DNA from: Acidobacteriaceae bacterium
Lineage (GTDB): Bacteria; Acidobacteriota; Terriglobia; Terriglobales; Acidobacteriaceae
Length of the DNA stretch: 16,284 bases
Direction of reading: 5' to 3'
NCBI GenBank assembly: GCA_003152795.1
Contig: PMBA01000282.1
Span: forward strand, 5,018-21,301
Shown here: in pieces, positions 1,273 to 16,160 of the stretch
Numbering within the stretch: position 1 is the stretch's first letter
Layout: every line of letters begins with the position of its first letter
Position numbers and translations under genes: made by a program
The notes under the pieces: generated by a model
What the model was told of the DNA's origin: nothing
Databases searched by the model: none
Seen by the model: the letters and a program-made list of their open reading frames with translations, nothing else

Positions 1273-4200
1273 ATGGCTAAGACTCGCGTGCTGTTTGGCA
1301 TTTTGACCTCTGTGTTGGTATTGGCGCTGCTGGTTGCGGGCGCGGTCGCCCAGGAAACCACGGGCGGATTGCAGGGGGTTGTGAGGGACGCGTCGGGTGC
1401 GGTGGTATCGCATGCCCAGGTGGAATTGACGGGTTCGTCGCTGGTCGGCAAGAAAGAATCGCCGACTGACGGTAGCGGATACTACCGCTTTGCCAACCTG
1501 CCGCCCGGGACCTATACGCTCACCATCACCGCGCAGGGCTTCTCGACTGCGAAGCGCGATGGTCTGATCATCGAAGTCGGCCACCTTCCCTCGGTCGACA
1601 TCAAGCTCGAAGTGGGCGCGGGTTCGACGGTGGTGGAAGTGAACGCGGCCGCGTCGACGATCGACGTGACCACCGAGACCACGCAGACCAACATTACCCA
1701 GGATGTGGTGCAGGATGTTCCGCACGGACGGTCGTTCCAGTCGGTAATTCAGTTCGCACCGTCGGCCCGCAACGAACCATTGGCGGGCAGCAACCCTTAT
1801 AACGGCGGCACTGGCAACGGCGGCACCTCGCCTGGCAACGGCAGCAACGGAAATAACGTCGGCTTCATGGTTGCTGGCGGCTCCGACTCCGAGAACTCCT
1901 ACCTGGTTGAAGGTCAGGAAACCGCGGACCTCGCGGGTGGTTTTTCGCACAGCAACGTGCCTTTTGACTTCATTGAAGAAGTGCAGGTCAAGACCTCCGG
2001 TGTTGAAGCGGAGCATGGCGGTTCGCTTGGTGGCGTCGTCAACGTCATCATGAAAAAGGGCAGCAACCACCTCCACGGATCGGTATTCAGCCAGTTCGAG
2101 AACCAGGGAATGGACGGTTCGCCGGTGGCTTTTCAGCGTTACGATCCAAACGGATCTGCTTCGTCCACGACCGGTGTCAACAACATCGACGTGCCGTACC
2201 AGTTGCTTCAGCCGATTCGACCGAAGACTAGCGACGTCTATCCCGGGTTCAACCTGGGCGGCCCGATTCTGAAGGACCGCATCTTTTTCTTCCTTGGCTT
2301 CAATCCGGAGTGGAACGATGCGGAACGAACCGTAAACTATGGTCCAACCAATGGCGGCGAGACGAAATTCAGCCGCAATGTGCAGACCTACTTCACCACG
2401 GCCCGCATTGACGCCAGCGTCTCCCAGAAAATTCGCATTTTCGGTTCATGGCTCTATCAGTATCAGCGAGAGGCCGGAGAAAACCTGCCAGCGTCCGATT
2501 CGACAACGGGTTTGTACAACTTCTCGACCGGGTGCTTCGCGAACTCCAGCACGCCGTGTCTCGGCACCGGGGTACCACAGTTTGCTTATTCCCATAATCT
2601 GGGCTATTCGGCGCCCAATATCACCACCAATTTCGGCGCGGACGTTACGATAACCCCGCGTCTGGTGGCCACCACCCGCTTTGGCTACTACTTCCAGAAC
2701 TATCACGACTTCGGCTTCCCGACCAGCGGCGAGCTTACTTTATGGAACGACAGCGGCCAGGGGGGTACTGACGCTTTCGACGCTCCGCTGCCCACGTCTT
2801 TACAGCAATCGACGGGGTATTTCAATGCCGCCCAGAACCAGAACGATACCCAGCGCAATGCGGATAAGGCCATCCAGTTTGACCAGGATGTAGCCTGGTT
2901 CAAGAGCGGATGGTGGGGGACGCACAACTTCAAGTTCGGCTATCAGTTGAATCGTTTGTCGAACGATATTTCACAGCATTGGAATGAACCGGCTACCCTC
3001 TTCAACGTCGGCGACGGAAACCCCGCGAACCCCGACTACAATCCCTCAGCCACCTACAGTTCGTCCAGTCCTAACGGCGCTACTGCTTGTGCGGCCCTAA
3101 CCGCCCTTTATGGTTCCTGCACCGGCCAGTATGGATACATCACCATTGAGGACTTTGGTTCTCTCGGAAAGGCTACCAGCTTCAACCACGGCATTTTTGC
3201 TCAGGATGCCTGGACGATCGGTAATGGCGTTACCATCAACGCCGGCGTCCGGTTCGACAAAGAGTATCTGCCGGGTGAAGGCGGAGCTCCTGGGGCGCAA
3301 AACCGTCCTATCAACTTCGGCTGGGGCGATAAAGTTGCTCCTCGGATCGGCGCTGCCTGGGATGTTTTCAAGGATGGCCGGATGAAGGTCTTCGGCAGCT
3401 ACGGCCGGTTCTACGACATCATGAAGTTGAATCTGGCCATCAGTTCGTTCGGCGGCCAGTACTGGCAGAATTGCATCTACGCCTTAAACACGTCCGATCT
3501 CAGCACGATCACCCCCGTTTTCAACAGCTCCGGGCGTTTCTGCGGCGGGCCGGGAACCGATTCCACCACCGAAGCTAACTTCGCGGGCGGGACCACACCG
3601 GCTGGACTGACCTTTATCGAGAACACGAACTTCCGCGCCTTCCCAACTACGTGTTCCACTTGCAGCGCAACCCAGGAAGGTGTAGCGCCTGGCCTGAGGC
3701 CGTACGAGCAGCATGAATCCGTATTCGGCGTTGACTACCAGATCAAGAGGAACCTGGCATTCGAAGCGCGCTGGGATCGCCGCCGGCTGGACCACGTGAT
3801 CGAAGACTCAGCCCTTTACAATCCCAACATCGGCGAAACCTTCGTCATCAGCAACCCTGGTCAGGGCGTAGGCAGCACTTTTGCGGGATTCTGGAACTTC
3901 CTCTACGGATGCTCTCCGTCGAATCCGACGGCCTGCGCTTCGTACCCGCAGAATGGGGTGCCGCAAATTTGCGACCCGAATTCGGGACTTTGCCCCCCCA
4001 CTGGCCTGATACCGGGCGCCCGCAGCTACGACGGTGTGGAACTGCGGTTGACTAAGACCACCAGCAATCACTGGTTTGCGATGTTCTCCTACACCTACAG
4101 CAAGCTGCGGGGAAATTACACGGGCTTGACCTCGACCGACCTCGCGGACGGCGGCGGGGGACGCAACGCTCCGAACAACAGCCGTTCGTTTGACGAGCCC

Positions 4201-4854
4201 TACTTCCAGTTCAATGCGAACGGAGGTTCTTCCAGCGGGTTATTGCCGACGGATCGCCCGAGCGCATTCAAGGGCTATGCCTACTATGAGCTGCCGTGGG
4301 GAAAATTCCACAACAAGCTGAATACGAACTTCGGCCTCTTCCAGGTTCTGTACAGCGGCACGCCGCAGACCAGCTACGCCGATGTGGGCTACAGCTCTCC
4401 GGGCGCGTGGCCGGTCGATATCGTCAACCGCGGGAAGTGGGTTGACGTGACCCAGGATCCAACCACCGGCGCCATCACTGTGGGTTCGCCGCGCACCTTC
4501 CGCACTCCGTGGTACATGCAGAGCGACTTCAGCATTGACCAAAACTACAAGATCACGGAGCGCAATACGTTGAGCTTCTCCGTAACCTTCACCAACCTGC
4601 TGAACCAGCACGCCGTAACCGCATACGGCCAGCAGATCGACTCCAACATCGTGCAGAGCTTCTTGTCGCCCAATGGCTCGTTCGTTGCCAGCCAGGGATA
4701 CTATGCGAACGCTGAGCGCCCGTATGACGTTCAGAGCTTGCTGAACCAGCAAAACCTGTTTGGCGAAGGCAACACCATCAACAGCCAATACGGAAAGCCT
4801 TACCTCTTCCAGGCTTCGCGCAACATCCGTCTTGGGGTGAAGTTCACCTTCTAG
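1273..4854 (+). CDS. Oar-like TonB-dependent receptor with carboxypeptidase-regulatory domain
   Basis: An outer-membrane protein of 1193 aa. A signal peptide (1-26, cleavage after AVA) precedes a carboxypeptidase regulatory-like beta-sandwich (about 30-112, including YYRFANLPPGTYTLTITA). A plug domain follows (about 140-265, with IEEVQVKTSG and GGVVNVIMKKGS), then a large beta barrel ending in FTF, the aromatic C-terminus recognised by the BAM machinery. Size and domain order match the Oar/TonB-receptor families typical of Acidobacteriota, which import or display large ligands across the outer membrane. The ligand cannot be read from the sequence. The plug carries a Gly/Asn-rich low-complexity stretch (about 175-198). 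Predicted surface loops hold closely spaced cysteine pairs (421/429, 606/616, 734/757, 794/797). The start is well supported by AGGAGG seven bases upstream, and an intrinsic terminator follows the stop. Confidence 0.93.
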   Translation: MAKTRVLFGILTSVLVLALLVAGAVAQETTGGLQGVVRDASGAVVSHAQVELTGSSLVGKKESPTDGSGYYRFANLPPGTYTLTITAQGFSTAKRDGLIIEVGHLPSVDIKLEVGAGSTVVEVNAAASTIDVTTETTQTNITQDVVQDVPHGRSFQSVIQFAPSARNEPLAGSNPYNGGTGNGGTSPGNGSNGNNVGFMVAGGSDSENSYLVEGQETADLAGGFSHSNVPFDFIEEVQVKTSGVEAEHGGSLGGVVNVIMKKGSNHLHGSVFSQFENQGMDGSPVAFQRYDPNGSASSTTGVNNIDVPYQLLQPIRPKTSDVYPGFNLGGPILKDRIFFFLGFNPEWNDAERTVNYGPTNGGETKFSRNVQTYFTTARIDASVSQKIRIFGSWLYQYQREAGENLPASDSTTGLYNFSTGCFANSSTPCLGTGVPQFAYSHNLGYSAPNITTNFGADVTITPRLVATTRFGYYFQNYHDFGFPTSGELTLWNDSGQGGTDAFDAPLPTSLQQSTGYFNAAQNQNDTQRNADKAIQFDQDVAWFKSGWWGTHNFKFGYQLNRLSNDISQHWNEPATLFNVGDGNPANPDYNPSATYSSSSPNGATACAALTALYGSCTGQYGYITIEDFGSLGKATSFNHGIFAQDAWTIGNGVTINAGVRFDKEYLPGEGGAPGAQNRPINFGWGDKVAPRIGAAWDVFKDGRMKVFGSYGRFYDIMKLNLAISSFGGQYWQNCIYALNTSDLSTITPVFNSSGRFCGGPGTDSTTEANFAGGTTPAGLTFIENTNFRAFPTTCSTCSATQEGVAPGLRPYEQHESVFGVDYQIKRNLAFEARWDRRRLDHVIEDSALYNPNIGETFVISNPGQGVGSTFAGFWNFLYGCSPSNPTACASYPQNGVPQICDPNSGLCPPTGLIPGARSYDGVELRLTKTTSNHWFAMFSYTYSKLRGNYTGLTSTDLADGGGGRNAPNNSRSFDEPYFQFNANGGSSSGLLPTDRPSAFKGYAYYELPWGKFHNKLNTNFGLFQVLYSGTPQTSYADVGYSSPGAWPVDIVNRGKWVDVTQDPTTGAITVGSPRTFRTPWYMQSDFSIDQNYKITERNTLSFSVTFTNLLNQHAVTAYGQQIDSNIVQSFLSPNGSFVASQGYYANAERPYDVQSLLNQQNLFGEGNTINSQYGKPYLFQASRNIRLGVKFTF

Positions 4855-4876
4855 CCAGACTGCGCGCCAAACCTCG

Positions 4877-4906
4877 AGGGAGCCGGGAATCCGGCTCCCT
4901 TTTCTT
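4877..4906 (+). terminator. Rho-independent terminator after the first receptor
   Basis: GGGAGCCGG (4878-4886) pairs perfectly with CCGGCTCCC (4891-4899) around a GAAT loop. One more A-T pair lies at the base, and TTTTCTT follows directly. It sits 23 bases after the stop codon at 4854, so the two tandem receptors are probably separate transcription units. Confidence 0.9.
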
Positions 4907-4916
4907 ATGCTCGGGG

Positions 4917-4948
4917 AAGCCGCCGGAACCCGATTCGGACGGCGGTTT
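4917..4948. repeat. Second hairpin downstream of the receptor terminator
   Basis: AAGCCGCCG (4917-4925) pairs with CGGCGGTTT (4940-4948), with one G-T wobble. Inside the loop CCG and CGG can form a smaller stem. There is no long T-run afterwards, so this is at best a backup terminator or a leader structure ahead of the next receptor. Confidence 0.4.
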
Positions 4949-5022
4949 GGGACGTGGTCGAGAAAAACGCGTACATCGCGCCGGGGAAGTGGGCGCATCT
5001 AGTAAACTGTTCTATTCGATTT

Positions 5023-5048
5023 CAGTTGAAAATCATTGCAGTTGAAAA
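5023..5048 (+). repeat. Direct repeat CAGTTGAAAA upstream of the second receptor
   Basis: Two exact copies of CAGTTGAAAA (5023-5032 and 5039-5048) lie 16 bases apart in the gap before the second receptor. Each contains a -35-like TTGAAA, but no matching -10 is found at the right distance. A regulator half-site pair is possible; chance is also possible. Confidence 0.35.
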
Positions 5049-5129
5049 CCTGCAGTGGAAACCAGGACCCTTAAACGCGGAACTGCGTCCAGGTTCTACT
5101 TGAGGTTCTGCTCCCAGGAGAGTGGCATT

Positions 5130-8100
5130 TTGTTTGATTGGTCTGGCTTGCATGTTCGTCGTTGTCTGCCCGTTGGCCTGTTGCCGGTGTTGATGGTTGC
5201 CCTCACGCTGGTTGCGCTCACAGGTTGGTTGCGGGCGCAGGAAACGGCCCCGGAAAATCCCACCACCGGCACCATTCAAGGCACGGTGAAGGATGACGTC
5301 GGCACTCCGGTGGAAGGGGCGCGCGTATTGTTCAGTTCGGCGGCCACCGATACCAGGGGCGTGACCCGCACGGGCACGGACGGGACCTACGTCACCGAAC
5401 CGCTGCCGCCGGGCGCTTACGTGGTGTTGGTGGAAGGCAAAGACATGGTGCCGGTGGAGCACACCGCGAATGTGGTGTCGGGGGCGTCGGCCACGGCGGA
5501 TTTCAATCTGGAATGGATTAATCCGGGGCCGGTGCGCCTGGAGAGCTTGTTCAGCGGCGACGTTCCCGACACGCTGCCTTTAGACGGGCGGAACTATCTG
5601 AGTGCGGGAGCGCTCCAGCCCGGCGTGCAGGCGGTGGATGGAAGAGTTTACGGCGCGGGCAAGAGTGGGACGCAATCGCTCTCGATCAATAGCCAACTGG
5701 GGCGAACCACGCACTACGACCTGGACGAAGTCGAGGCGATGGACGAGACCAGGGGCGCAGCCACACTGAATCTGCCCGCCGACGCGGTGCGCGAGGTGAT
5801 CGTGTCGCGGGCCACGCCGGAAGTGTTCCAGTCGCTGAACGCCAGCGGCGCGGTGCGGGTTACGACGCGCTCCGGCGGGGATGAATGGCACGGCAATCTT
5901 TTTGGCAATCTGGAGGACCGGATCGTCGGCCTGGCGGGGTTTCCGTCGGGCGATCCGAAGTACAGCCGGCAACAGTATGGATTTGGGGCGGGCGGCGCCC
6001 TCATCCCGGACAAGGCGTTTTTGTTTATCGGCGGCGAACGCACCAAGCAGGATGGGGACTTGCCGATCCAACTCGGATTCCCCGCTTTTAACGGCATCGG
6101 CCTGCAGAGCGCTTATTTTCGCGAGAACATGCTGACGGCGCGGCTGGATTACAACTTCAGCGAAAACATGAAGGGGTTCGCCCGGCTCAGCTACGACAAT
6201 GCCAACGGGATCGGGCCGTCGGACAGCCAGTCGAATTTTCGCAATCAGGTGAACGTTCCGGCGGCGGTTTTTGGACTGGATTGGAACCACGGACGGTTCG
6301 TCAACAGCGCCCGTTTCGGCTACCGGAAGATGGTGGACGCGATTAATCCGGACCTCAAGGACTCGGTAATTTTCCCGACGGCGCCCTTCCACATGCAGAT
6401 TGGATCGTATGCCCTGGGGCCGAGCGTGGCCGGTCCGCGACAGACGATTCAGCGCGACCTTTACGGGCGCTACGACAGCAGCACAATCTTCCGGGTGAAT
6501 CATCGGGTGCGCTTTGGTGGAGCGATTCATCGCATCGCGCAGGGAGATTTCTATGCGCCGGGAAGTGATGGCCCGTCGGTGACGAGTTCCAATGGACTGG
6601 ACGTGATCACCGCCATCAACAGCGACCCGAACCTGTTTCCGCTTTTCCCGGGCGATCCCCGCGGTGCGGCAGGCAATCCACTGAACTATCCGGTGGGCAC
6701 GGTCACGATTTTCAACGGCCTCGGAAATTTCAGCGAGAACTCGGCTTTCAACCGGTCGAGCGGCGGACACTTCGACACCCGCCTCGAGGGCTATCTGGGC
6801 GATACGTTCAATCTGTTACCAAACCTCAACATCAGTTTTGGCGTGAATTATGTCCGGGACAGCGGGCGCACCGACGGCGACCTGGCGCCGGCGCAATGTT
6901 CGGCGATCAACACCACCATCGTGACCAATCCACCGTGCACGACTGGTCTGATTCTCGATCAATTCGGTGTGATTACGAACACCGCCTCGGGTGGACACCA
7001 GAGTCTGGGCCAGAGCGTGAACCAGCCGAACTTCAATTTTGCCCCGCAAGCGGGTGTGGCATGGGATCCGGGGCACAACGGGCGGACGGTGATTCGCGCC
7101 AGCGGAGGAATGTTCTTCGACAATTTTCTGCTCCAGAATACTTATCAGGATCGCATCAACCGCTTGTCGAACGGGCAATACAACCGCAGCCTGACGCTGT
7201 GTCCGACGGGGGCGGTGCTGTTTCCGGACGGATCGGTGGTGAATTCGGTAGAGGGAGTGGACATCGCGACCGGCATCTGCGGGCAGCCCATCAATGCGGT
7301 TGCTTCGTTGATTCAGGAATTGCAGTCACAGTTCCAAACGGCGCAGTCGCTGGTGACGGGCGGGCAGAACGTGTACTCGCTGGCCAACAGCCTGGCGAAC
7401 TTTGGCGGCCTGCTGGCGCCCGGTTTCAAGACGCCGCGCGTGGTCCACATGAGCGCCGGGATTCAGCATCAGATGGGGGAGCGCGGTATGTTCTCCGTCG
7501 ACTATGTGCGCGAGCTCGGCACCCAGTTTCCCCTGGGGATTGACACCAATCACGTGGGCGACGCCAGCTACTTGACCGACGGCAGCAATATAAACCCGTT
7601 GCTCAATACCTATGCGGCGGAGCTGTCGGCTATCAATTCCACGCTGTCGGCCAACCCCTTGTCGGTGAACGCGGGATGCCCGCAGAATCATCCCGCTCTG
7701 TTTGCGGGCAGCAGTTCGCAGGCAGCGGTGGATTGCTATCTGGCCGCGGTGCCCGGAGCGAGCATCACCGATTTCGCGCGCCAGGGGCTGGACTCGTCGA
7801 ATGCATTCTGCGGACCGTTTCCGTGCTCGGTGCTGGGCAAGCAGCAGGCGGCGTTCGGCGGCGTGAATCCGGCGGTGGGATCGAACATCATGTACTTTCC
7901 GAGCGGGCGATCGCAATATCAGGCTTTGCACCTGGCGTACAAGACCAGTTCGGAGAATGCACTGCGGCGGGTGCGCCGGCTCGACGTGGCGATTGCGTAT
8001 TCGTGGTCCCGGTATCGCACCAACGTGGCGGAGCCCAACGGCAGCGGAGGAGATTATTCGCTGATGAACGTGGCGGAAGATTTCAACCGCCCGCACCTGA

Positions 8101-8828
8101 GACATTTCGGGTCGTCGGGGCTGGACCGGACGCACCAGTTGACGTTCACTCCGGTTGCGGAGTTGCCGCACGGGCTGCGGCTGGCGATGATCGCGCACCT
8201 GGCATCGCCGCTGCCGCTGAGCGCCCGCCTTCCGCAACAGGATGGGGGCGGAGTGGCGGGAGAAATCTTCCGCAGCGACCTCACCGGCGACGGTACGGTA
8301 GGCGACCTATTGCCCGGCACGTTTATCGGAACCGCGGGAAGGCATTCGGCCAGCACGTTGACCAGCGCCATCACGTCTTACAACGCCAACTATGCCGGGA
8401 GGTTGACGCCGGCGGGGAACGATCTGTTCATCAGCGGCTTGTTCCGATCGGATCAACTGGGCACGCTGGGTGCATACGCCCCTACGATTCAAGGGCTGCC
8501 GGGGCATTATGCGCAAGCGACTTGGCTGAAGACCATCGATCTGCGGTTGAGCTGGCCGTTGCAGATTGGAGAGCGGGTAAAACTGGAGCCGAATTTCTCC
8601 GTGTTTAACGCTTTCAACTTTGCCAACTTTGGGGGCGCGGGGAACCAGTTAAGCGGTGTGATGAATGGAGCTCCGGGCAGTTCGCTGAACAATGCGAGTT
8701 CGGCGGGATTCTGCGGCAACTCATCCACCTATTGCACCTCGCGGTTGGATCGGGTTCTGCCCGGTTCGGGCACGTATGCGACGGGGGCTCCGCGGCAAAT
8801 GGAGTTTGGAGTTAGGATCACGTTCTGA
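5130..8828 (+). CDS. Second Oar-like TonB-dependent receptor
   Basis: A protein of 1232 aa from the TTG at 5130. That start is chosen because AGGAGAG (5116-5122) is correctly spaced before it and because it gives a normal signal peptide (basic HVRR, then a hydrophobic core, cleavage near RAQ at about 35-37). The frame opens upstream to a GTG at 5055, but that start has no Shine-Dalgarno and would bury the signal sequence. A carboxypeptidase regulatory-like domain (about 48-127) precedes a plug (about 145-255, with ADAVREVIVSRATPE) and a long beta barrel ending in GVRITF. A DLTGDGTVGD stretch in the late barrel resembles a calcium-loop motif. Loops contain several cysteine pairs. It is a distinct paralogue of the preceding receptor, not a recent copy, because loop sequences differ throughout. 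Substrate unknown. The exported sulfatase-fold gene starts 115 bases later on the same strand. Confidence 0.92.
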   Translation: MFDWSGLHVRRCLPVGLLPVLMVALTLVALTGWLRAQETAPENPTTGTIQGTVKDDVGTPVEGARVLFSSAATDTRGVTRTGTDGTYVTEPLPPGAYVVLVEGKDMVPVEHTANVVSGASATADFNLEWINPGPVRLESLFSGDVPDTLPLDGRNYLSAGALQPGVQAVDGRVYGAGKSGTQSLSINSQLGRTTHYDLDEVEAMDETRGAATLNLPADAVREVIVSRATPEVFQSLNASGAVRVTTRSGGDEWHGNLFGNLEDRIVGLAGFPSGDPKYSRQQYGFGAGGALIPDKAFLFIGGERTKQDGDLPIQLGFPAFNGIGLQSAYFRENMLTARLDYNFSENMKGFARLSYDNANGIGPSDSQSNFRNQVNVPAAVFGLDWNHGRFVNSARFGYRKMVDAINPDLKDSVIFPTAPFHMQIGSYALGPSVAGPRQTIQRDLYGRYDSSTIFRVNHRVRFGGAIHRIAQGDFYAPGSDGPSVTSSNGLDVITAINSDPNLFPLFPGDPRGAAGNPLNYPVGTVTIFNGLGNFSENSAFNRSSGGHFDTRLEGYLGDTFNLLPNLNISFGVNYVRDSGRTDGDLAPAQCSAINTTIVTNPPCTTGLILDQFGVITNTASGGHQSLGQSVNQPNFNFAPQAGVAWDPGHNGRTVIRASGGMFFDNFLLQNTYQDRINRLSNGQYNRSLTLCPTGAVLFPDGSVVNSVEGVDIATGICGQPINAVASLIQELQSQFQTAQSLVTGGQNVYSLANSLANFGGLLAPGFKTPRVVHMSAGIQHQMGERGMFSVDYVRELGTQFPLGIDTNHVGDASYLTDGSNINPLLNTYAAELSAINSTLSANPLSVNAGCPQNHPALFAGSSSQAAVDCYLAAVPGASITDFARQGLDSSNAFCGPFPCSVLGKQQAAFGGVNPAVGSNIMYFPSGRSQYQALHLAYKTSSENALRRVRRLDVAIAYSWSRYRTNVAEPNGSGGDYSLMNVAEDFNRPHLRHFGSSGLDRTHQLTFTPVAELPHGLRLAMIAHLASPLPLSARLPQQDGGGVAGEIFRSDLTGDGTVGDLLPGTFIGTAGRHSASTLTSAITSYNANYAGRLTPAGNDLFISGLFRSDQLGTLGAYAPTIQGLPGHYAQATWLKTIDLRLSWPLQIGERVKLEPNFSVFNAFNFANFGGAGNQLSGVMNGAPGSSLNNASSAGFCGNSSTYCTSRLDRVLPGSGTYATGAPRQMEFGVRITF

Positions 8829-8943
8829 GCGGCGGATCTTCCGATGGAAAGCCGGGTATCCCCGCCCGGTCAATGCGTACGCAACGAGTGACCGGCCATC
8901 GCAGTTCGCGGAACCGATCGCGGCCGTCGAGCGGAACAATCTC

Positions 8944-10917
8944 ATGATTCGTCAGTGGGTGAGCGTGATTTTGTGCGTGGTGTGCCAGGCGGCCCGCGCG
9001 CTGGCCGGCGCACCCGCTCCTCCCAACATCGTCGTGATCACGGTGGATACGGCCCGAGCGGACCGCATGGGGTTTCTGGGCTCGAAGCTGGGACTGACGC
9101 CGAACCTGGACGCGCTGGCGGGCGAGTCCGCTGTTTTCGTTCGCGCCTATTCGCAAGTCCCGCTGACTGCGCCTTCGCACGCGACCATCTTCACGGGTAC
9201 CTACCCGCAGTTTCACCATGTGAACGATTTCCAGGTGCTGCTGGCGAACGAACTGCCCTGGGCGCCGGAAATTTTGCGCAGCGGCGGGTATCACACGGCG
9301 GCGTTTGTCAGCGCCATGGTGCTCGACCCGCGCGCCGGGTTTGCTCGCGGTTTCGACCGTGGCTTCGACACCTACGACGCCGGCTTTCACCAGCGCCTTC
9401 CGGGAGAAGATCGGTACCACTCGACCGAGCGCCGTGGCGGAGAAGTGGTGGAGCATGCCCTGGCCTGGTTGAATGACCATCCCCAGCGCCCGTTTTTCAT
9501 ATGGCTGCACCTTTACGACGCGCACGATCCCTACGATCCGCCCGAACCTTACAAGAGCAAGTACGCCGCCGCGCCCTACGACGGTGAGATTGCGTACGCG
9601 GATTCGGCGGTAGGCAGGTTCCTCGGCGAGTTGCGGAGGCGTGGACTCTACGACGGCGCGGTGATCGCGGTGATGGCGGATCATGGCGAGGCGCTGGGCG
9701 AGCACGGCGAAGATAGTCACGGAGTCTTTCTCTACGACGAAACCATCCACGTGCCCCTGGTAATCAAGTTGCCCGGTGGCGCTGCCGCCGGGAAACGCAT
9801 TGAGACGCGAGTTGGACTGGTCGATGTGATGCCGACGATCCTGGAGGCGGTGGGAGTTGCGGTGCCGCGGGAAGTGCAAGGGGAATCAATGATGGGCATG
9901 ATGACGTCGAAGACGGCATCTGCCGAAGGCGCCGACCGCCCGGAGTATGCGGAGACAGACTATGCGCAGCGCACGCTCGGATGGAGTTCGCTGCGGGCAC
10001 TGCGATCGGGAAAGTATCTCTACATCAAAGCGCCGCGGCCGGAACTCTACGACCAGGCGGCGGACCCGAAAGCCGAGCGCGATTTGGCGTCCGCCTCGTC
10101 GGCGGTGGCCACTACGTTAGCCGGGCAACTGGATGCGTTCCGGCAAGAGACCGGCAGCAGCCGGGAAGCGCCCAACGCCACTATCGATCCGGAAGCACAG
10201 GCGAAACTGGCGGCGCTCGGCTATGTCGCCACCGATCCCAACCCTTCGAGGTCCGGCGCCAGGAGCATGGGCGCGGATCCCAAGGACAAAATCGAGATTG
10301 CTAACCTGGTGCATCGAACGTTCCTGCTGATCGAAGATCAACGTTACCAGGAGGCCGTTCCCCTGCTCGAGCAACTGATAGCGAAAGAGCCGGACACGCC
10401 GCTGGCCTACGCCCAACTCGGCCAGTGCCTGGTCTCGCTCAAGGACTACACGCAGGCCGTGCCGGTGCTGCGCAAGACCGTGCAATTGCGTCCGGACCTG
10501 ACCCTCCCGCATTTCCAGCTGGGGGTGGCGTTAATCGAAACCAAGGACATCGCCGGCGCAGTGCCCGAATTCGAAATCGTCGTGGCCAGGGTACCGCGCT
10601 GGGAGGAAGCGCACCTATATCTGCAGATGGCCTACGCGCAGACCCACCGCATGCCGGAAGCCATCGCGGAGTGCAAGAAGGTGCTCGAAGTCGATCCCGA
10701 TCACTACGCAACGAACCTGCTCCTCGGGCGAGTTCTGGAACTCACGGGAAATCTTGCCGCCGCGTTGCCGAGTCTGAAGAAGGCGGCCGCGCTCGAGCCC
10801 AAAGCGCCCGAGCCGCATACGTTTCTCGCCGATGCCTATGACCGGTTGGGACGGAAAACGGACGCCGCGCGGGAGCGGGCGGCAGCGCGGCGTTTGCGAG
10901 CGGATCACAAGGAGTGA
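8944..10917 (+). CDS. Exported sulfatase-superfamily protein with C-terminal TPR domain
   Basis: A protein of 657 aa. An N-terminal hydrophobic segment (about 5-20, ARALAG) looks like a signal peptide. The alkaline phosphatase/sulfatase fold spans about 27-410: metal-binding Asp35 in ITVDTARAD, the nucleophile region PLTAPSHATIFTG (73-85), HLYDAHDPYDPP (189-200), and metal ligands Asp246-His247 in MADHGEALGEHGED. The C-terminal part (about 449-657) is a series of TPR units, usually a protein-binding solenoid. The position of the sulfatase catalytic Cys/Ser is occupied by Thr75 (T-A-P-S-H instead of C/S-x-P-S-R). It therefore cannot mature to formylglycine in the usual way; other superfamily members with Thr here act on phosphate esters. 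Activity is uncertain. ATG 8944 is the start that leaves a signal peptide; its Shine-Dalgarno is weak (GAGCGG). It may be co-transcribed with the receptor 115 bases upstream. Confidence 0.88.
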   Translation: MIRQWVSVILCVVCQAARALAGAPAPPNIVVITVDTARADRMGFLGSKLGLTPNLDALAGESAVFVRAYSQVPLTAPSHATIFTGTYPQFHHVNDFQVLLANELPWAPEILRSGGYHTAAFVSAMVLDPRAGFARGFDRGFDTYDAGFHQRLPGEDRYHSTERRGGEVVEHALAWLNDHPQRPFFIWLHLYDAHDPYDPPEPYKSKYAAAPYDGEIAYADSAVGRFLGELRRRGLYDGAVIAVMADHGEALGEHGEDSHGVFLYDETIHVPLVIKLPGGAAAGKRIETRVGLVDVMPTILEAVGVAVPREVQGESMMGMMTSKTASAEGADRPEYAETDYAQRTLGWSSLRALRSGKYLYIKAPRPELYDQAADPKAERDLASASSAVATTLAGQLDAFRQETGSSREAPNATIDPEAQAKLAALGYVATDPNPSRSGARSMGADPKDKIEIANLVHRTFLLIEDQRYQEAVPLLEQLIAKEPDTPLAYAQLGQCLVSLKDYTQAVPVLRKTVQLRPDLTLPHFQLGVALIETKDIAGAVPEFEIVVARVPRWEEAHLYLQMAYAQTHRMPEAIAECKKVLEVDPDHYATNLLLGRVLELTGNLAAALPSLKKAAALEPKAPEPHTFLADAYDRLGRKTDAARERAAARRLRADHKE

Positions 10918-10942
10918 AAAGCGGCGTCAGAGACAAGAGTGC

Positions 10943-10980
10943 GAGGGCGTTTCGGATGGACTCACCTCCTGAACGCCCTC
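10943..10980. terminator. Hairpin between convergent genes
   Basis: GAGGGCGTT (10943-10951) pairs with AACGCCCTC (10972-10980) around a 20-base loop that can form a small inner GGA/TCC stem. It lies between the sulfatase-fold gene and the convergent minus-strand repeat protein. No T-run follows on either strand, so it is a weak shared terminator or an mRNA-stabilising structure. Confidence 0.4.
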
Positions 10981-11034
10981 CAGGTTTAAGGCTTCCACGC
11001 GCACCGTGAGATGTACCGCGTAAGCCAGCGTGAA

Positions 11035-12114
11035 CTATGCGCTCACACTCAGAGCATTGGAGCTGCTCTGAGCCTGACTGGTCGCGGTGGCTGTCAGCAC
11101 GTTCAGAAGCAGCTCGTAATTTTTCGTCTGGTTGAGGTTGATGGTGATTTGCTCCGCGTTGCTGCCGCTCTGTCCCTGATTTACGTCAATCGTGACCTGC
11201 GCTCCTGCGCTGCCGCTACCGAGATTGATCGTAATCTCTTCCGGAGAAGCGGACGAAGAGCTGCTCCCCTGGCCGAGATTGATGACCAGTTCCGGCGTGG
11301 TGGAACTCGACCCGCTGGTGCCGGACGTTCCTCCCAGGTTGATGACGATCTCGGAAAGCGCGGAACCGTTTGCCGCTGTGGTGGAGGCGGCAGGCGCCTG
11401 CACGGCGGGCGGCACAATGGGTTGCGGCCCGACTGGCTCCGGGCCTACGGTGGGCCCTCCGGCTGCCTCAAGATTGGCGAAGGCCGACTGGGCTCCGGCC
11501 AGATCGCCGGATTGCAGCGCCTGACCGATCGCCTCGAAATCCTGGGCGCGGCCGGCCTGCTGGAACGGTTCCGCATTCTGGTTGGGCCCGCTTTGGCCGA
11601 GCGCGGCCAGGGTGCTGAAGTCCTGCTGGGCGGCGGTCAGGTTGCCGGCTTGCAGGTCTTGTCCGAGTTGGGCGACATCGGCTTGCCGCTGCTGCCGGAA
11701 GGCTTGCAGTTCCTGGTAGATCGAAGACCCATTGTCGGCTGCCGTTGCCGTGTTTGGCTGGGTGCTGGTGAGGTTTACGATCGCGGCCGGAGTCGTCTGC
11801 GATGCCGTTTCGGCATTGGGTCGTTTGACGGTAAGCGTCGCAAATTCCGCCTGCGCGCGCGCCAGGTCGCCCGCTTGCAATGCCTCCCCGACGGCATCGA
11901 ACGCCTGGGCGCGGCTGGACTTGGAAAACGGCTCGGAATTCGCGAAGGGTCCACCTTCTCCGAGCACCGCCAGAGCCTTGTAGGCCTGCTGCGCGCTCGC
12001 CAGGTCCCCACTTTGAAGCGCGCTCCCGAGCTGCTTAAGATCGGCCTGGCGGTTCTGGTAGAAGCTTTGGAGCTCCTGAAGTATCGATAAGCTGGAAACT
12101 GCCGCTGTTGACAT
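11035..12114 (-). CDS. Modular repeat protein, unrecognised family
   Basis: I do not recognise a named family. The 359-aa protein has no signal peptide or membrane segment. Residues 12-95 and 132-216 are two copies of one module. Each module contains a long helix-rich unit (QELQSF..NRQAD..QLG..LQSGDL..AQQ, 12-50 and 132-171), a GPF/GPN-AEPF-like linker, and a shorter unit (RAQ.F.A.G.ALQ.GDLA.AQ..FA.L, 68-95 and 189-216). Four related helical hairpins result. A Pro/Ala-rich linker (221-250) leads to a C-terminal Ser/Gly/Thr-rich region. This carries five short beta motifs: EIVINLG (255), ELVINLG (275), EITINLG (293), QVTIDVN (306) and QITINLN (322), plus a possible sixth (334). The start is supported by GGGAGA eight bases upstream of the ATG. 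The opposite strand also has a long open frame here, but it lacks these regular repeats. A cytoplasmic scaffold or self-assembling protein is possible; function unknown. Confidence 0.8.
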   Translation of the reverse strand: MSTAAVSSLSILQELQSFYQNRQADLKQLGSALQSGDLASAQQAYKALAVLGEGGPFANSEPFSKSSRAQAFDAVGEALQAGDLARAQAEFATLTVKRPNAETASQTTPAAIVNLTSTQPNTATAADNGSSIYQELQAFRQQRQADVAQLGQDLQAGNLTAAQQDFSTLAALGQSGPNQNAEPFQQAGRAQDFEAIGQALQSGDLAGAQSAFANLEAAGGPTVGPEPVGPQPIVPPAVQAPAASTTAANGSALSEIVINLGGTSGTSGSSSTTPELVINLGQGSSSSSASPEEITINLGSGSAGAQVTIDVNQGQSGSNAEQITINLNQTKNYELLLNVLTATATSQAQSSSNALSVSA

Positions 12115-12296
12115 AGGTTTTCTCCCAATGGCGGGTTCGCCGTTACTTCATAACATGGGCTTAGTTGCCGCCCTTCAAACCTCATCGGTTGAACGGGAGA
12201 ATGACTTTAGAGGAAACCGAGAGTTACCAACGTTCCATCGCTCCGCGACCGAGGCCAATTGCGAGGCAGGAATATCGTCTGCAAACGCCGGACGCG

Positions 12297-12326
12297 AAAA
12301 GGCCGGAACAGGTGCCTGCTCCGGCC
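12297..12326 (-). terminator. Rho-independent terminator of the ABM-like gene
   Basis: Read on the minus strand, GGCCGGA (12320-12326) pairs with TCCGGCC (12301-12307) as a 7-bp stem. An inner CAG/CTG stem and small loop sit inside, and TTTT (12300-12297) follows immediately. It lies about 80 bases past the stop of the gene ending at 12405, so it separates that gene from the repeat-protein gene downstream. Confidence 0.82.
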
Positions 12327-12356
12327 GGCTTACTTGATGGTTCTTCGGTTTACGGG

Positions 12357-12416
12357 ATCATGCTCAGTCAATCATGCTCAGCCAATCTGTTCAGGCAATC
12401 ATGCTCAGGCAATCAG
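12357..12416. repeat. 14-bp tandem repeat, about 4.3 units
   Basis: Unit ATCATGCTCAGNCA: copies at 12357-12370, 12371-12384, a degenerate 13-base copy at 12385-12397, another at 12398-12411, and a partial ATCAG at 12412-12416. The variable position is T, C, G and G in the four copies. The right end overlaps the last codons and the TGA of the minus-strand ABM-like gene; the rest lies in its 3' untranslated region, before the terminator. Confidence 0.9.
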
Positions 12417-12728
12417 TGTTTTTTCGAAGTGCTCGCAGAGCGTGGTCTCGAGCGTGTAAGTCTTGCGAACCGTGGGATTGGTCATATACGGCTTGAGGAT
12501 TTGCTCTATCCTCGGGACCCACTCTTTCTCATTGCGCTCGAGATCCTTCTTGTCGGTCCAGAGGGTCACCGCCAGCACCTTCTCGGTCTTGACCTCGGGC
12601 ACGAGTGGAAGGATTTCGAGGAAGCCATCCTGTTTCTTCAGAATGGGAAGGACCTCTTTTTTTACGACGCGGATGAATTCGTCTTTTTTCTCCAGCAGCG
12701 GAACGAACTCAAGGATGCGAGCGAACAT
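12405..12728 (-). CDS. Small ABM-like (antibiotic biosynthesis monooxygenase fold) protein
   Basis: A 107-aa soluble protein. The order of beta strands and amphipathic helices fits the ABM/dimeric alpha-beta barrel fold: MFARILEFVPLLEKKDEFIRV, then the helix VVKKEVLPILKKQDGFLEIL, then VLAVTLWTDKKDLE. Members of this fold act on quinols or polyketides, or have no known substrate. No catalytic residue can be assigned here, so a specific reaction is not claimed. The start at 12728 is preferred over the upstream in-frame ATG (12806) because AGGAG sits about eight bases before it and similarity to the fold begins there. The last three residues and the stop are encoded within a 14-bp tandem repeat. 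It is transcribed divergently from the secreted protease at 12932. Confidence 0.75.
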   Translation of the reverse strand: MFARILEFVPLLEKKDEFIRVVKKEVLPILKKQDGFLEILPLVPEVKTEKVLAVTLWTDKKDLERNEKEWVPRIEQILKPYMTNPTVRKTYTLETTLCEHFEKTLIA

Positions 12729-12762
12729 GGGAATTCTCCTTTCGTTCTTGGAATTTTGAAAT

Positions 12763-12825
12763 TGGCTCCGCGAGACTTCTGTCTGGCCCGGTCTGCGGGA
12801 TGGCATGGAGACTACAGCGGAGCCA
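12763..12825. repeat. 9-bp perfect inverted repeat in divergent intergenic region
   Basis: TGGCTCCGC (12763-12771) is the exact reverse complement of GCGGAGCCA (12817-12825), separated by 45 bases that include an inner CCCG/CGGG stem. It starts 34 bases upstream of the ABM-like start codon. It could be a regulator site or, if transcribed, a folded 5' leader of that gene. Confidence 0.5.
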
Positions 12826-12858
12826 GAGGGTTTGCAGTGATGGTTGGGCAGCGCGAAT

Positions 12859-12887
12859 GTGACAATTTTCGCTGAAATCGTTTCAAT
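12859..12887 (+). promoter_or_regulatory. Candidate sigma70-type promoter of the protease gene
   Basis: GTGACA (12859-12864, five of six matches to TTGACA) and TTCAAT (12882-12887, four of six to TATAAT) are separated by 17 bases. This would give a leader of roughly 35-40 bases before the GTG at 12932. Read by eye only. Confidence 0.4.
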
Positions 12888-12931
12888 CTGGGAACCGGCG
12901 ACTGTAGAGACAAGGCTTGGTATTCTGAAGC

Positions 12932-13693
12932 GTGGTCTGGTGCCGAATTTTCGCGGTGCTTCTCGTTTCGCTGCCCTGCGACGCGGCGTTGGCGCAGGCA
13001 GTCACAGCGCCTCCGGCAGCCCTGCGCGCCGCTGTCCCGCTGTTGTGTACCGAGAACAATCGCGGCGCCTATACTCGCGTTCGCGGCAGCGGAGTCATCG
13101 CCGATTCCGGCGGCACGCTGCTGACAGCCGCTCACGTCATTCTCCAGGCTCACTCCGGCCTCGCCTCCGGCTGCACACTCAGTGTGATGGTTCCGGACGA
13201 GGAATGGACTCGCACCGGGCGCCTGCGCGCCTTCCTGCTGGGAGATTGCCGCCTGAACCAGCCACTCGATCTGGCGGTGTGCCGCATTCATCCGGCAGAG
13301 AACAGTCGCGACTGGGGCTACCTCCGCGCTGCCCGGATCCGCTTGCGTCCGGCCACATCCGGCGAACCGGTTTGGGTCACAGCCTTCACCGGTTGGGGCA
13401 TGTTTCCGCTGATCCGCAGCGGACATATCACGGGGCGGCAGAACTATCAGCGCCAGGACGGATGCCGTTGCGACTTTGCCACCGACATTACCGCCGTCGA
13501 AGGCATGAGTGGAGGTCCGGTTATCTCCCGCGAGGGAGAGGTTCTGGGAATCATCACGCTGGCGGGAAAGGGAAAATTCATCGGCCTGTCTTTCGGCGTC
13601 AGTTTTGAGGAGGCTAAAAGCTTCTTGCGGGCTGAAGGCGTTATCGCTTCCGCAAGCGCGGATCAGGTGTCCGGAAAAGATAGCGCGCATTAG
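12932..13693 (+). CDS. Secreted trypsin-like serine protease
   Basis: A 253-aa protein starting at GTG 12932, the first start after an in-frame stop; it has no strong Shine-Dalgarno. A signal peptide (about 1-23, ALAQA) precedes a chymotrypsin-fold peptidase of the HtrA/S1 type. The catalytic triad is complete: His68 in LLTAAHVI, Asp113 in LDLAVCRI, and Ser193 in GMSGGPVIS. The mature part is short (about 230 aa) and lacks the PDZ domain of DegP/HtrA, so it is a stand-alone protease domain. Six cysteines in the mature region (39, 81, 106, 117, 178, 180) suggest disulfides and a periplasmic or secreted location. Substrate unknown. Its stop is 25 bases from the stop of the convergent membrane-protein gene. 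The long frame on the opposite strand lacks any comparable motif. Confidence 0.85.
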   Translation: MVWCRIFAVLLVSLPCDAALAQAVTAPPAALRAAVPLLCTENNRGAYTRVRGSGVIADSGGTLLTAAHVILQAHSGLASGCTLSVMVPDEEWTRTGRLRAFLLGDCRLNQPLDLAVCRIHPAENSRDWGYLRAARIRLRPATSGEPVWVTAFTGWGMFPLIRSGHITGRQNYQRQDGCRCDFATDITAVEGMSGGPVISREGEVLGIITLAGKGKFIGLSFGVSFEEAKSFLRAEGVIASASADQVSGKDSAH

Positions 13694-13718: not shown

Positions 13719-14099
13719 TCAGTGAACAAACGGATAGATTTCGTCGACGATCCAATAATTCGCCAGCGCCACCGCAAACAGGGTTCCCGCCAAATAGAGA
13801 CCGGAACGCCAGCGCTGCCACGCCACGCCGCGAAAGGTCCAACGCCGCATTGGAATATCCACGAGGTAAGCGGCACAGTAACAGGCATTGGCCAGCAGTC
13901 CCAAAACGACCAGTTTTAGAAGCGACGAGAGTGTCGCCGCGTCGCGGAAGTGCGGCCAGGTCAGCACCAGCCAGGCAATGACCACGGCCGTAAGCACCAG
14001 GTTGTACACGATCCGGCGTGGTTCCCAATATCGGATCGCATCGTGCAGAAGTTCTGGCAGCGGGGACGATGGGGATTGAACTGGGTTGCGCGTGTCCAT
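13719..14099 (-). CDS. Small three-helix membrane protein, unknown function
   Basis: A 126-aa protein with a polar N-terminus (YWEPRR at 24-29) and three hydrophobic segments at about 30-49, 59-81 and 98-118, ending VDEIYPFVH. I do not assign a family or function. The frame is open upstream to 14228, but that extension reads through the tRNA-derived repeat (GREFESLRAH is a typical false translation of a tRNA). The start is therefore placed at ATG 14099. That start has no Shine-Dalgarno; the bases before it are pyrimidine-rich (TTTCTCCT). The gene begins 14 bases from the tRNA-Arg 3' fragment, so before the islet arrived it may have sat directly downstream of an intact tRNA-Arg and been read from that promoter (inference). 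Confidence 0.7.
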   Translation of the reverse strand: MDTRNPVQSPSSPLPELLHDAIRYWEPRRIVYNLVLTAVVIAWLVLTWPHFRDAATLSSLLKLVVLGLLANACYCAAYLVDIPMRRWTFRGVAWQRWRSGLYLAGTLFAVALANYWIVDEIYPFVH

Positions 14100-14112
14100 A
14101 GGAGAAAGTGAC

Positions 14113-14159
14113 TGGTGCGCCCGGAGAGATTCGAACTCCCGACCTACAGCTCCGGAGGC
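14113..14159 (-). repeat. 47-bp duplicate of the tRNA-Arg 3' part (att-like site)
   Basis: This stretch is identical, base for base, to 16084-16130, which is the 3' part of the tRNA-Arg(CCG). It runs from the last two bases of the 5' anticodon stem through the anticodon loop, variable region and T-arm to the encoded CCA. Identity stops at both edges (14160 A versus 16131 T; 14112 C versus 16083 T). It has no acceptor 5' half or D-arm, so it is not a working tRNA. Orientation is the same as the intact gene, as expected for the far-end attachment site of a tRNA-integrated element. Confidence 0.93.
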
Positions 14160-14326
14160 AGTCAGAATACCATGGGCCTTCGAAGAATCGGTTGCCTGCA
14201 ATAGGTTCTGCGCTCCAAAGTGAGGCACGATCGGCGGCAGGGATCCCAGCGATTGTTAGCGGGCAAAGTTGCTCGTCATCCGCCGAAACGCCGATTTTAA
14301 CCCGCCGTCCGACCCAGCGATGGTTA

Positions 14327-14358
14327 CGAAATATTTCCTACACTTTCGTATTATTTCG
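14327..14358 (+). promoter_or_regulatory. Candidate promoter and operator of the islet gene
   Basis: CGAAATA (14327-14333) and TATTTCG (14352-14358) form a perfect 7-bp inverted repeat around 18 bases. A -10-like TATTAT (14349-14354, five of six) overlaps its right arm; the only -35-like TTACGA (14324-14329) is poor and 19 bases away. The arrangement resembles an operator over a promoter. The rest of 14160-14421 shows no gene. Confidence 0.3.
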
Positions 14359-14421
14359 CTTCTGATGTACTATCTCCGGTATCGCGCGCTCTTGCCGAAC
14401 TTCGCGCTTGCCGGAGAGCTC

Positions 14422-15996
14422 ATGGATCGACGCACCTTCTTGAAATCCGCCACTGCAACAGGACTCACAGTAGGTCTGCTCAAGGCCAGCGCCAACGCCT
14501 CCATACCCGAACACAACTGGGACAAATACGATTGGGGATCAGGGCCTGCGGTCCCCGACCGGCTTTATCAGGGGCCGTTCCCACAGTACGGTCCCTGCGC
14601 GGTTGTTCCCGAGAGCGATGTCTCGATGATTACTTCGCCGTCCCGGGAAATCGTCAGCAATTACGGCATGGGTCTCATCGCTTATCTTTCCGACGATACC
14701 GGACCGCTCAGTATCCCCGGTCAAACCCAGGAACGAACTCTGGAGGATCTCGTCAAGCTACCCTTCGTGCAGAAGGTCTATCTCCGTCCAAACTGGCGCG
14801 AGGTGCAGAAGCAGCCAGGCCGGCTCGACTTCGCGGAGTGGTGGAAAATCGCCTTCGAATTGGCTCGCCGCTACGACAAGCCCATCGGGTTCCGCGTCCA
14901 GTTGGAGAATCCCGACGTTCCCGATCCGGGGATGCCGGACTTTCTCCTTAACAAGGTTCCCTACGTAAAGCTCAAAGGCGAGTGGAAGGGTAACCCGGCG
15001 GAAATGCGCTACAAGAAGGATAACCGCGTGCCGCGCTACGATCACCCGGCGTATCAGGCAGCGTTTCGCGAATTGAATGAGCTGCTGGCCGCCGAACTCA
15101 ACGGTCATCCGCAGATCGAGTTCATGGATACCATGATGTACGGCTTTTGGGGCGAAGGGCACACCTGGCCCTACGAGGGCAATCCGTTCCCCAGCCAGTT
15201 GGTTGCGGAACAGACATGGGCGTCCATGTTCGAGACGCAACTTGAACACTGGACTAAAGTCCCGCTGGCGACGAATACTCAGCCCGACTTCAGCAACGTG
15301 GGCAACGCCGACATGCTGGATCGTACGATGCGCACCGGCAACTGGCTACGTACGGATACGATTTTCATTGAGAATACTCAGATTGAAGCATTGAGCTACC
15401 GTCCGCTGTGGGCTGCGGCGATCTGCGAAGTTGGTTTCACCACCGGCGATGCGAAGGAGCTTCAGATCGACGAAGATGGAATTACTTACAACGAGCAGAT
15501 CATTTCTCACGCCGCCGACGTCGGTGTCAATTATCTGTCGGTTTGGAGTTGGCATAAGCAATCGGCTCGCAGCATTTTGAGCTACTACGAGAAGTTTCCG
15601 GAGCCCATCGATGAGATGGCGCGCCAGATCGGCTATCGCATCCGCCCGTCGTTTATCTGGACTTTCAAGCGGGACGGAACTGACGGTCTGGTGATCGGAC
15701 TCGCAAACGATGGGATCACGCCCGTTCCTGGAGTGCTTCGCCTTACTGTGTTCAGTGAGGACAACAAGATCAACGTATCAGGCTGCATTGACGCCGGCTA
15801 TCCGAAGCCGACAGGCGTTCATCAAGCGATGCTGATGCTGCCAGCGGGCGTTCCATGGCAGGGTCTGCGGCTGAAGGCTGAGCTCGAAGTTAAAGGCGTG
15901 CGTCATCCGGTCCGATGGGCGTGCCGGCAGAAGGTCAATCCGGATGGCTCATTGACGCTGCGCCACAACTACAAACCTGATCAGCCGTTGGTGTGA
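14422..15996 (+). CDS. Tat-exported glycoside-hydrolase-like TIM-barrel protein
   Basis: A 524-aa protein with a twin-arginine signal (MDRRTFLKSA, then a hydrophobic stretch to about 27), so it is exported folded. The middle resembles beta-galactosidase-like/DUF4832-type TIM barrels. A segment YLRPNWREVQKQPGRLDFAE (120-139) is typical of an early barrel strand of clan-A hydrolases. GFWGEGH (241-247, Glu245) is a candidate acid/base region, IFIENTQIE (314-322, Glu317) a candidate nucleophile strand, and YLSVWSW (371-377) a late strand. The last 110 or so residues look like a beta-sandwich. Family assignment is from motif pattern only and the substrate is unknown. ATG 14422 is chosen because GGAGAG lies five bases upstream and the Tat motif begins there; upstream in-frame starts add a sequence with no signal character. 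It is the only complete gene of the tRNA-bounded islet. Confidence 0.7.
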   Translation: MDRRTFLKSATATGLTVGLLKASANASIPEHNWDKYDWGSGPAVPDRLYQGPFPQYGPCAVVPESDVSMITSPSREIVSNYGMGLIAYLSDDTGPLSIPGQTQERTLEDLVKLPFVQKVYLRPNWREVQKQPGRLDFAEWWKIAFELARRYDKPIGFRVQLENPDVPDPGMPDFLLNKVPYVKLKGEWKGNPAEMRYKKDNRVPRYDHPAYQAAFRELNELLAAELNGHPQIEFMDTMMYGFWGEGHTWPYEGNPFPSQLVAEQTWASMFETQLEHWTKVPLATNTQPDFSNVGNADMLDRTMRTGNWLRTDTIFIENTQIEALSYRPLWAAAICEVGFTTGDAKELQIDEDGITYNEQIISHAADVGVNYLSVWSWHKQSARSILSYYEKFPEPIDEMARQIGYRIRPSFIWTFKRDGTDGLVIGLANDGITPVPGVLRLTVFSEDNKINVSGCIDAGYPKPTGVHQAMLMLPAGVPWQGLRLKAELEVKGVRHPVRWACRQKVNPDGSLTLRHNYKPDQPLV

Positions 15997-16015
15997 AGGC
16001 AGAGGAGTAATGTGC

Positions 16016-16083
16016 ATGAAAGTTTCAACCCTGGTTATGCCTGAACACAGAGCGGAAAGCACGGCAGGCAACTTATTGAAAAT
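16016..16083 (+). pseudogene. Possible truncated 5' end of a second islet gene
   Basis: GAGGAG (16002-16007) is well placed for the ATG at 16016, 20 bases after the hydrolase stop. The frame begins MKVSTLVMPEHRAESTAGN and then runs antisense into the tRNA-Arg at 16084, where the translation is the familiar false product of a tRNA. Either this is the leftover start of a cargo gene cut off at the tRNA junction, or a chance Shine-Dalgarno. The continuation past 16083 is not a real protein. Confidence 0.25.
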
Positions 16084-16160
16084 TGGTGCGCCCGGAGAGA
16101 TTCGAACTCCCGACCTACAGCTCCGGAGGCTGCCGCTCTATCCAGCTGAGCTACGGGCGC
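16084..16160 (-). tRNA. tRNA-Arg (anticodon CCG)
   Basis: Read on the minus strand, the acceptor GCGCCCG (16160-16154) pairs with CGGGCGC (16094-16088). The D-arm GCTC/GAGC, the anticodon stem GCAGC/GCTGT with loop CTCCGGA (anticodon CCG, reading CGG), and the T-arm GGGAG-TTCGAAT-CTCTC are all present. Discriminator A and an encoded CCA (16086-16084) follow, then ATTTT. The structure is complete, with only normal G-U pairs, so the gene should be functional. Its 3' 47 bases are repeated at 14113-14159. Confidence 0.97.

Follow-up and report, generated by a model that had tools for sequence, protein, structure and literature searches.

A probable tyrosine-recombinase element relic holding a captured operon fragment at a tRNA-Arg(CCG) gene of an acidobacterium

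The window analysed here is a 16,284-nt stretch of contig PMBA01000282.1 from an Acidobacteriaceae genome, a 4.72-Mb assembly in 475 contigs that is 82% complete. An intact tRNA-Arg gene with anticodon CCG was identified by ARAGORN at 16084..16160 (minus strand), and its 3' part occurs twice, as a tRNA-proximal 47-bp copy (16084..16130, tRNA positions 31-77 in antisense on the plus strand) and as a distal copy (14113..14159, plus strand). The original prediction, made from the sequence alone, described two identical 47-bp copies in the same orientation, and a repeat search bears this out: they are exact direct repeats 1971 bp apart that bound a 1,924-bp islet (14160-16083). Exact 47-mer pairs are expected by chance about 7e-21 times in uniform random sequence, a negligible figure, and the whole source assembly contains only these two sites, both at the islet, with up to three mismatches allowed. 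The copies were said to span exactly the anticodon loop to the CCA; the CCA is indeed included, and with position 31 four bases ahead of the anticodon the repeat begins in the anticodon stem-loop, which makes the description nearly exact. Such a repeat of a tRNA 3' part at both ends is what marks a tyrosine-recombinase element targeted to a tRNA gene. The interior holds one complete gene (14422-15996, 524 aa), as predicted, and neither the open reading frames nor a domain search revealed an integrase within 14160-16083. Because the islet has no integrase of its own, as an autonomous element would, we class it as a relic rather than an element.

On the far side of the distal copy lies a gene for a membrane protein (13719..14096, minus strand). 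Its product is 125 aa, one residue shorter than originally stated, and with its start at 14096 the gap to the tRNA fragment measures 16 bases instead of 13. An open frame on the minus strand at 13719-14228 is chimeric, joining the element end, the tRNA fragment and the membrane-protein gene in that order, and may be called as a single gene by annotation pipelines. Further along, the window has a 27-nt repeat in three degenerate copies (TGCTCAGTCAATCATGCTCAGCCAATC) at 12347-12414. The proposed comparison of islet composition with its surroundings was carried out and favours neither side: the islet has a GC content of 0.562 and the contig one of 0.594, and the 3-mer make-up is ordinary, with 56 of 125 windows at least as far from the mean. 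Composition thus speaks neither for nor against a foreign origin of the islet.

An exact 26-mer of the tRNA is present in 19 of 24 same-genus genomes, the source genome included, and 20 loci were fetched from the other 18; two of these carry tRNA-Arg(ACG) and 18 the CCG gene. In all CCG loci but two (16 of 18), the tRNA has the same conserved gene as its neighbour; the two exceptions lie at contig ends, and the locus is evidently orthologous in these relatives. In one genome (G003; L029, G003:C61:23000-42999), the tRNA-Arg is turned around with respect to the conserved genes near it, with the conserved gene on the other side. The genes downstream in the window (trypsin-like, ABM, p359, sulfatase-TPR, TonB and VWA) recur variably among the loci and not in every one. 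Alignment with relatives, as the original prediction had advised, yielded an islet-free site: in G018, of the same genus, the two flanks of the islet can be matched to the window at base level, and the membrane-protein gene follows the tRNA with nothing inserted between them. The outer flank of the distal core resembles the tRNA 3' flank of this empty site, identifying the distal copy as the probable displaced original 3' part and the intact gene as the integration target, which the insertion would have rebuilt. An ancient conserved arrangement of tRNA, fragment and hydrolase was rejected, as all 20 loci lack the hydrolase; a second tRNA-Arg fragment elsewhere, which would have suggested ordinary tRNA duplication and decay, was not found in the 82%-complete source genome either. 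On these alignments, the islet is an insertion at tRNA-Arg.

The islet gene (14422..15996, plus strand) encodes a protein with a weak Tat-type signal and a predicted (beta/alpha)8 barrel of the kind seen in GH42, GH14 and GH35, and on the strength of this model we regard it as glycoside-hydrolase-like and call it the hydrolase. It has no Pfam match, and a comparison of its sequence with solved structures gave nothing convincing. Invariant acidic residues, E245 and E317 among them, were seen in an alignment of 41 sequences, and dN/dS against 13 relatives is 0.057-0.135. In a tree of nine rows, the source genome groups with G019 and G013 (support 100/99), a grouping that is rejected for the conserved tRNA-neighbour gene (16 rows, AU p 0.0003); because the two trees disagree, the hydrolase appears to have been acquired horizontally. 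Between the source genome and G019, synonymous divergence is 0.336 in the hydrolase and 0.640 in a piece of rpoB. The corresponding values are not lower for G001 (0.483 versus 0.427) and G010 (0.697 versus 0.466), as expected if only the kinship with G019/G013 is special. Searches of 50,697 phage records gave no match to the hydrolase, while 3 of 72,556 plasmid records matched at 59.5% identity or less.

The hydrolase gene did not come by itself, to judge from its relatives. A chromosomal fragment of 1,805 bp (14235..16039, plus strand) comprises the gene, its upstream region and the first eight codons (MKVSTLVM, 16016..16039, plus strand) of a truncated gene, the start of a right-handed beta-helix gene that lies 3' of the hydrolase in several relatives. 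In G001, the homology covers exactly 14235-16039, the eight beta-helix codons included, at 87.7% DNA identity; it covers 14235-16006 in G016, 14243-16038 (in two pieces) in G002 and 14324-16038 in G019. Eight same-genus genomes carry a hydrolase 85-94% identical at another place, that of G002 being in two pieces. A GHL10-like gene, scoring just under the Pfam cut-off, adjoins the hydrolase or lies one gene off in G001, G009, G010, G013, G014 and G016; G002 has only a stub of it, and the G019 contig ends before it. The beta-helix gene follows the hydrolase in G001, G002, G013 and G019. Neither partner gene was found in the source genome (82% complete), one of the searches having been run without a positive-control genome. 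The region upstream of the hydrolase at 14324-14400 is strongly conserved among five aligned relatives, which suggests a conserved promoter or operator, and a sigma-70 scan found no promoter-like site there. In G016 (L088, G016:C230, 3-2296), the hydrolase is immediately preceded by a tyrosine recombinase and an IS91-type transposase.

The operon homology abuts, at 14235 and 16039, two short stretches that resemble the ends of an integrase-bearing element inserted at the same tRNA in another genome of the family, G136. The distal end (14160..14234, minus strand, 75 nt, 'int136 type') matches the G136 distal end without gaps at 45 of 75 positions, in register and at the same distance from the core. 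None of 20000 shuffles did as well, and the best match elsewhere in the 16-kb G136 locus reached 35; the local alignment score alone is weaker, being equalled by 8 of 1000 shuffles. Over 31 positions G136 scored 19, against 4 for G044, 7 for G129 and 7 for G017, three further elements or islets at this tRNA. The tRNA-proximal end (16040..16083, minus strand, 44 nt) is like the G136 proximal end (0/500 and 0/1000 shuffles as good; E 1.5e-4 in a search). For four other proximal arms, the shuffles as good out of 1000 numbered 0 (G276), 8 (G037), 101 (G180) and 248 (G176). The likeness of the left end to G136 emerged from direct comparison and was missed by the search over 398 genomes: a blast-type search with 14160-14240 found no match at E<=0.01 in the 397 other family genomes, G136 included. 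The right end matched 10 of the 397, G136 among them, in weak or partial matches whose places were not each checked. G136 is the one element with an integrase at this tRNA whose two ends both match those of the islet; for G037 and G176, the fetched DNA contains no second tRNA piece and supplies a proximal end only. A leftover C-terminus of a G044-clade integrase beside the tRNA was also considered, as QLIEN resembled PQLIEG, and was rejected when 193 of 400 shuffles equalled the peptide score.

A 19-nt motif, TGTGTTCAGAAyGTGwTCA, defined from these same sequences, occurs exactly twice in the 16-kb G136 locus, near each element end and in the same orientation. At the proximal end it is present in G037 and, as a variant, in G176, and is absent from G276 (where a matching proximal arm lacks it and the contig ends 493 nt beyond the tRNA), G044, G129 and G017. 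Integrases of the lambda type bind arm sites, and by its position and this analogy the motif (TGTGTTCAGAAnGTGnTCA) is a candidate arm site at the ends of the G136 element. The window has the proximal motif cut after TGTGTTCAG (minus strand), half of the candidate arm-type site, and lacks the distal one; each inner junction falls within about 10 bp of the place of the motif in G136. As far as these comparisons reach, the islet is a chimaera of element ends and a chromosomal operon fragment. We consider it extremely improbable that it was created by the assembly joining a hydrolase contig of another population member through the tRNA repeat. The assembly is in 475 contigs and 47-bp repeats can mislead short-k assembly, but a false join would require a hydrolase source already flanked by the 47-mer left and right, which is the islet or its circle again, and the GC3 of the hydrolase (0.693) fits that of eight neighbouring genes (0.675-0.761). 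The inner junctions themselves (14234/14235 and 16039/16040) could be errors of so fragmented an assembly.

The family was searched for other elements at this tRNA. A tRNA 40-mer had at least two matches in 13 of 398 family genomes, and among the matches listed, at least seven genomes, the source of the window included, had two on one contig; the other six were examined. The G044 element measures 4.5 kb; its 3' fragment of the tRNA is 46 bp long, and its tyrosine integrase, of 410 aa, overlaps the tRNA. In integrases of the G044 clade, which is large (L113 6209-7438, homologues P0121-P0240), the last 20 or so codons are the antisense of the tRNA-Arg 3' half, and 62 of the 120 homologues listed match the tail pattern W[CR]ARRDSNSRPxAPEAxALSS. 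The 10-kb element of G136 (L116, G136:C82:44000-60000, 2986-13177) is bounded by a 45-bp fragment, has its 408-aa integrase adjacent to the tRNA and carries genes for a capsid protein, an S78/prohead protease and a small terminase; a second integrase, of the G044 type, lies just beyond the fragment. Ten open reading frames of this element were scanned, in which no large terminase, portal, tail or conjugation gene was recognised. In this acidobacterium, the element is either a defective prophage or something like a phage satellite that forms capsids, the likening to satellites being our own assumption. At least three genomes have an integrase of the G136 type beside the tRNA: G136 itself, G037 (76% over 251 residues) and G176 (56% over 146 residues, a fragment). 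No locus turned up when viral contigs were scanned with the integrases of G044 and G136. Integrases for the same tRNA are thus present in the family; in the source genome, where the original prediction had advised looking, no close helper emerged among the four of nine candidates scored. By the evidence of these genomes, tRNA-Arg(CCG) is a used integration site in the family.

Two further genomes have a 3' fragment of the tRNA and no match to three integrase queries in tblastn. In G129 (L114/L115, G129:C85:80000-104000), 18 kb lie between the tRNA-Arg and a 42-bp fragment, with a distal end matching that of G044 at 21 of 31 positions; the genes of this stretch, named by eye from open reading frames, look metabolic. 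G017 (L041, G017:C86, 10009-10573), compared separately, has a 484-bp islet between the tRNA-Arg and a 35-bp 3' fragment, with one short membrane-protein-like frame, again by eye. G016, G216 and G288 have whole or decayed duplicates of the tRNA-Arg gene, unlike the 3'-only copy of the window, and in L118 (G288:C88, 1970-2803) one small gene lies between two full-length copies whose outer flanks are dissimilar. These duplicates flank short stretches, and a partial tRNA duplication, or the illegitimate insertion of a fragment carrying a tRNA-Arg 3' half, could in principle give the islet without any integrase. We judge this very unlikely, since the duplicates of the relatives reach into the 5' half whereas the window repeats positions 31-77 only, the repeated core is nearly that of the integrase-bearing elements, and both islet ends match an integrative element. 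Among the fetched hydrolase loci, none has the hydrolase between tRNA-Arg pieces outside any element; the only tRNA-Arg there is complete, a different one, and 3.4 kb past the hydrolase (L103).

Our preferred reading, to which we assign a probability of about 0.78, is that the islet is the relic of a gutted tyrosine-recombinase element, that it holds a captured operon fragment and that it most likely can no longer be excised. An element with G136-like ends would have integrated within the 3' part of tRNA-Arg(CCG), so that the tRNA was restored and a 47-bp duplicate came to lie at the opposite end of the element, a step supported by the repeat, the empty site and the matching ends. Its interior, integrase included, would have been lost later or before arrival and replaced by a 1.8-kb fragment of the hydrolase operon of another bacterium, cut in the second gene. 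The remains would be a 47-bp core at each boundary, 75 and 44 nt of element end within, and a single complete gene together with the upstream region that belongs to it, the hydrolase presumably now being a resident single gene. This make-up is there to be observed, while the order and mechanism of loss and replacement are what we infer. Counting against the reading is that G136 is the only integrase-bearing element to supply both ends.

Whether the islet was a remnant or a passenger moved in trans had been left open by the original prediction, whose reading as a tRNA-targeted insertion holds. The evidence now favours a remnant: the second gene of the operon breaks off after eight codons, no more than 75 and 44 nt of the element ends are left, the islet is single-copy in the source genome, and no close helper integrase of the G136 type was found there, the best match being 41% over 174 residues (E 1.3e-32; four of nine candidates scored). 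Because the motif is half lost at one end and gone at the other, a G136-type integrase most likely could not excise the islet, which is probably immobile. A cargo cassette that lacks autonomy and is still mobilised in trans by such an integrase, a tyrosine-recombinase counterpart of MITEs or CIMEs, would account for the survival of the two cores and of a portion of each element end, for copies that are still identical, for an intact, horizontally acquired hydrolase from a family with low dN/dS, and for another short islet without recognised integrase at the same tRNA in G017. We hold it to be unlikely, in view of the incomplete motif, the distant integrase and the near absence of the ends from the 397 other family genomes; a mobilised element is also expected in several copies, and there is one in the source genome and none at the 20 same-genus loci. 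A more general version, in which elements at this tRNA give rise to minimal single-gene cassettes by swapping their interior, between or at the two terminal direct motifs, for a chromosomal fragment, and the cassettes are then moved in trans by intact elements, is distinctly unlikely; if true, it would be a route for capturing and transferring single genes without carrying an integrase.

Returning to the preferred reading of a gutted relic, short islets with one gene next to a tRNA frequently go unexplained, and here every boundary can be assigned, with the target, the element ends, the captured fragment and a likely donor lineage. The islet would show an integrative element eroded to its ends with one gene staying, and it allows a simple test of how much attachment end an acidobacterial tyrosine recombinase needs. 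Its closest known counterpart with genes, the G136 element, shares the core, the distal 75 nt and the proximal 44 nt; the islet has none of its genes and no complete terminal motifs. Tycheposons and tRNA-bounded flexible islands, in the account given in PMC10872708, are likewise cargo bounded by tRNA genes, one type being known by tRNA-Lys 3'-end repeats, but tycheposons carry their own tyrosine recombinase and measure 4-200 kb, unlike the islet. For the ssrA islands of Dehalococcoides, PMC3146451 reports 15 without integration modules, in which direct repeats of an RNA-gene 3' end surround cargo without integration genes at a site that is also home to integrase-bearing islands; those described there use a serine recombinase, target tmRNA and form tandem arrays, whereas the window has one islet with one gene at tRNA-Arg. 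The definition of CIMEs in PMC5704250 describes the same general outcome as in the islet: a site-specific location, flanking att repeats, retained cargo and no integrase or transfer genes. The islet has no integration or transfer genes, and its cores, in the place of attL and attR, are identical, with the G136 terminal motif eroded as above. It differs in that its nearest relative with genes bears phage capsid genes, in that its ends are so far reduced and in that its cargo is a captured operon fragment. The best reading is that the islet is akin to CIMEs, of a kind already known and with an unusually clear anatomy.
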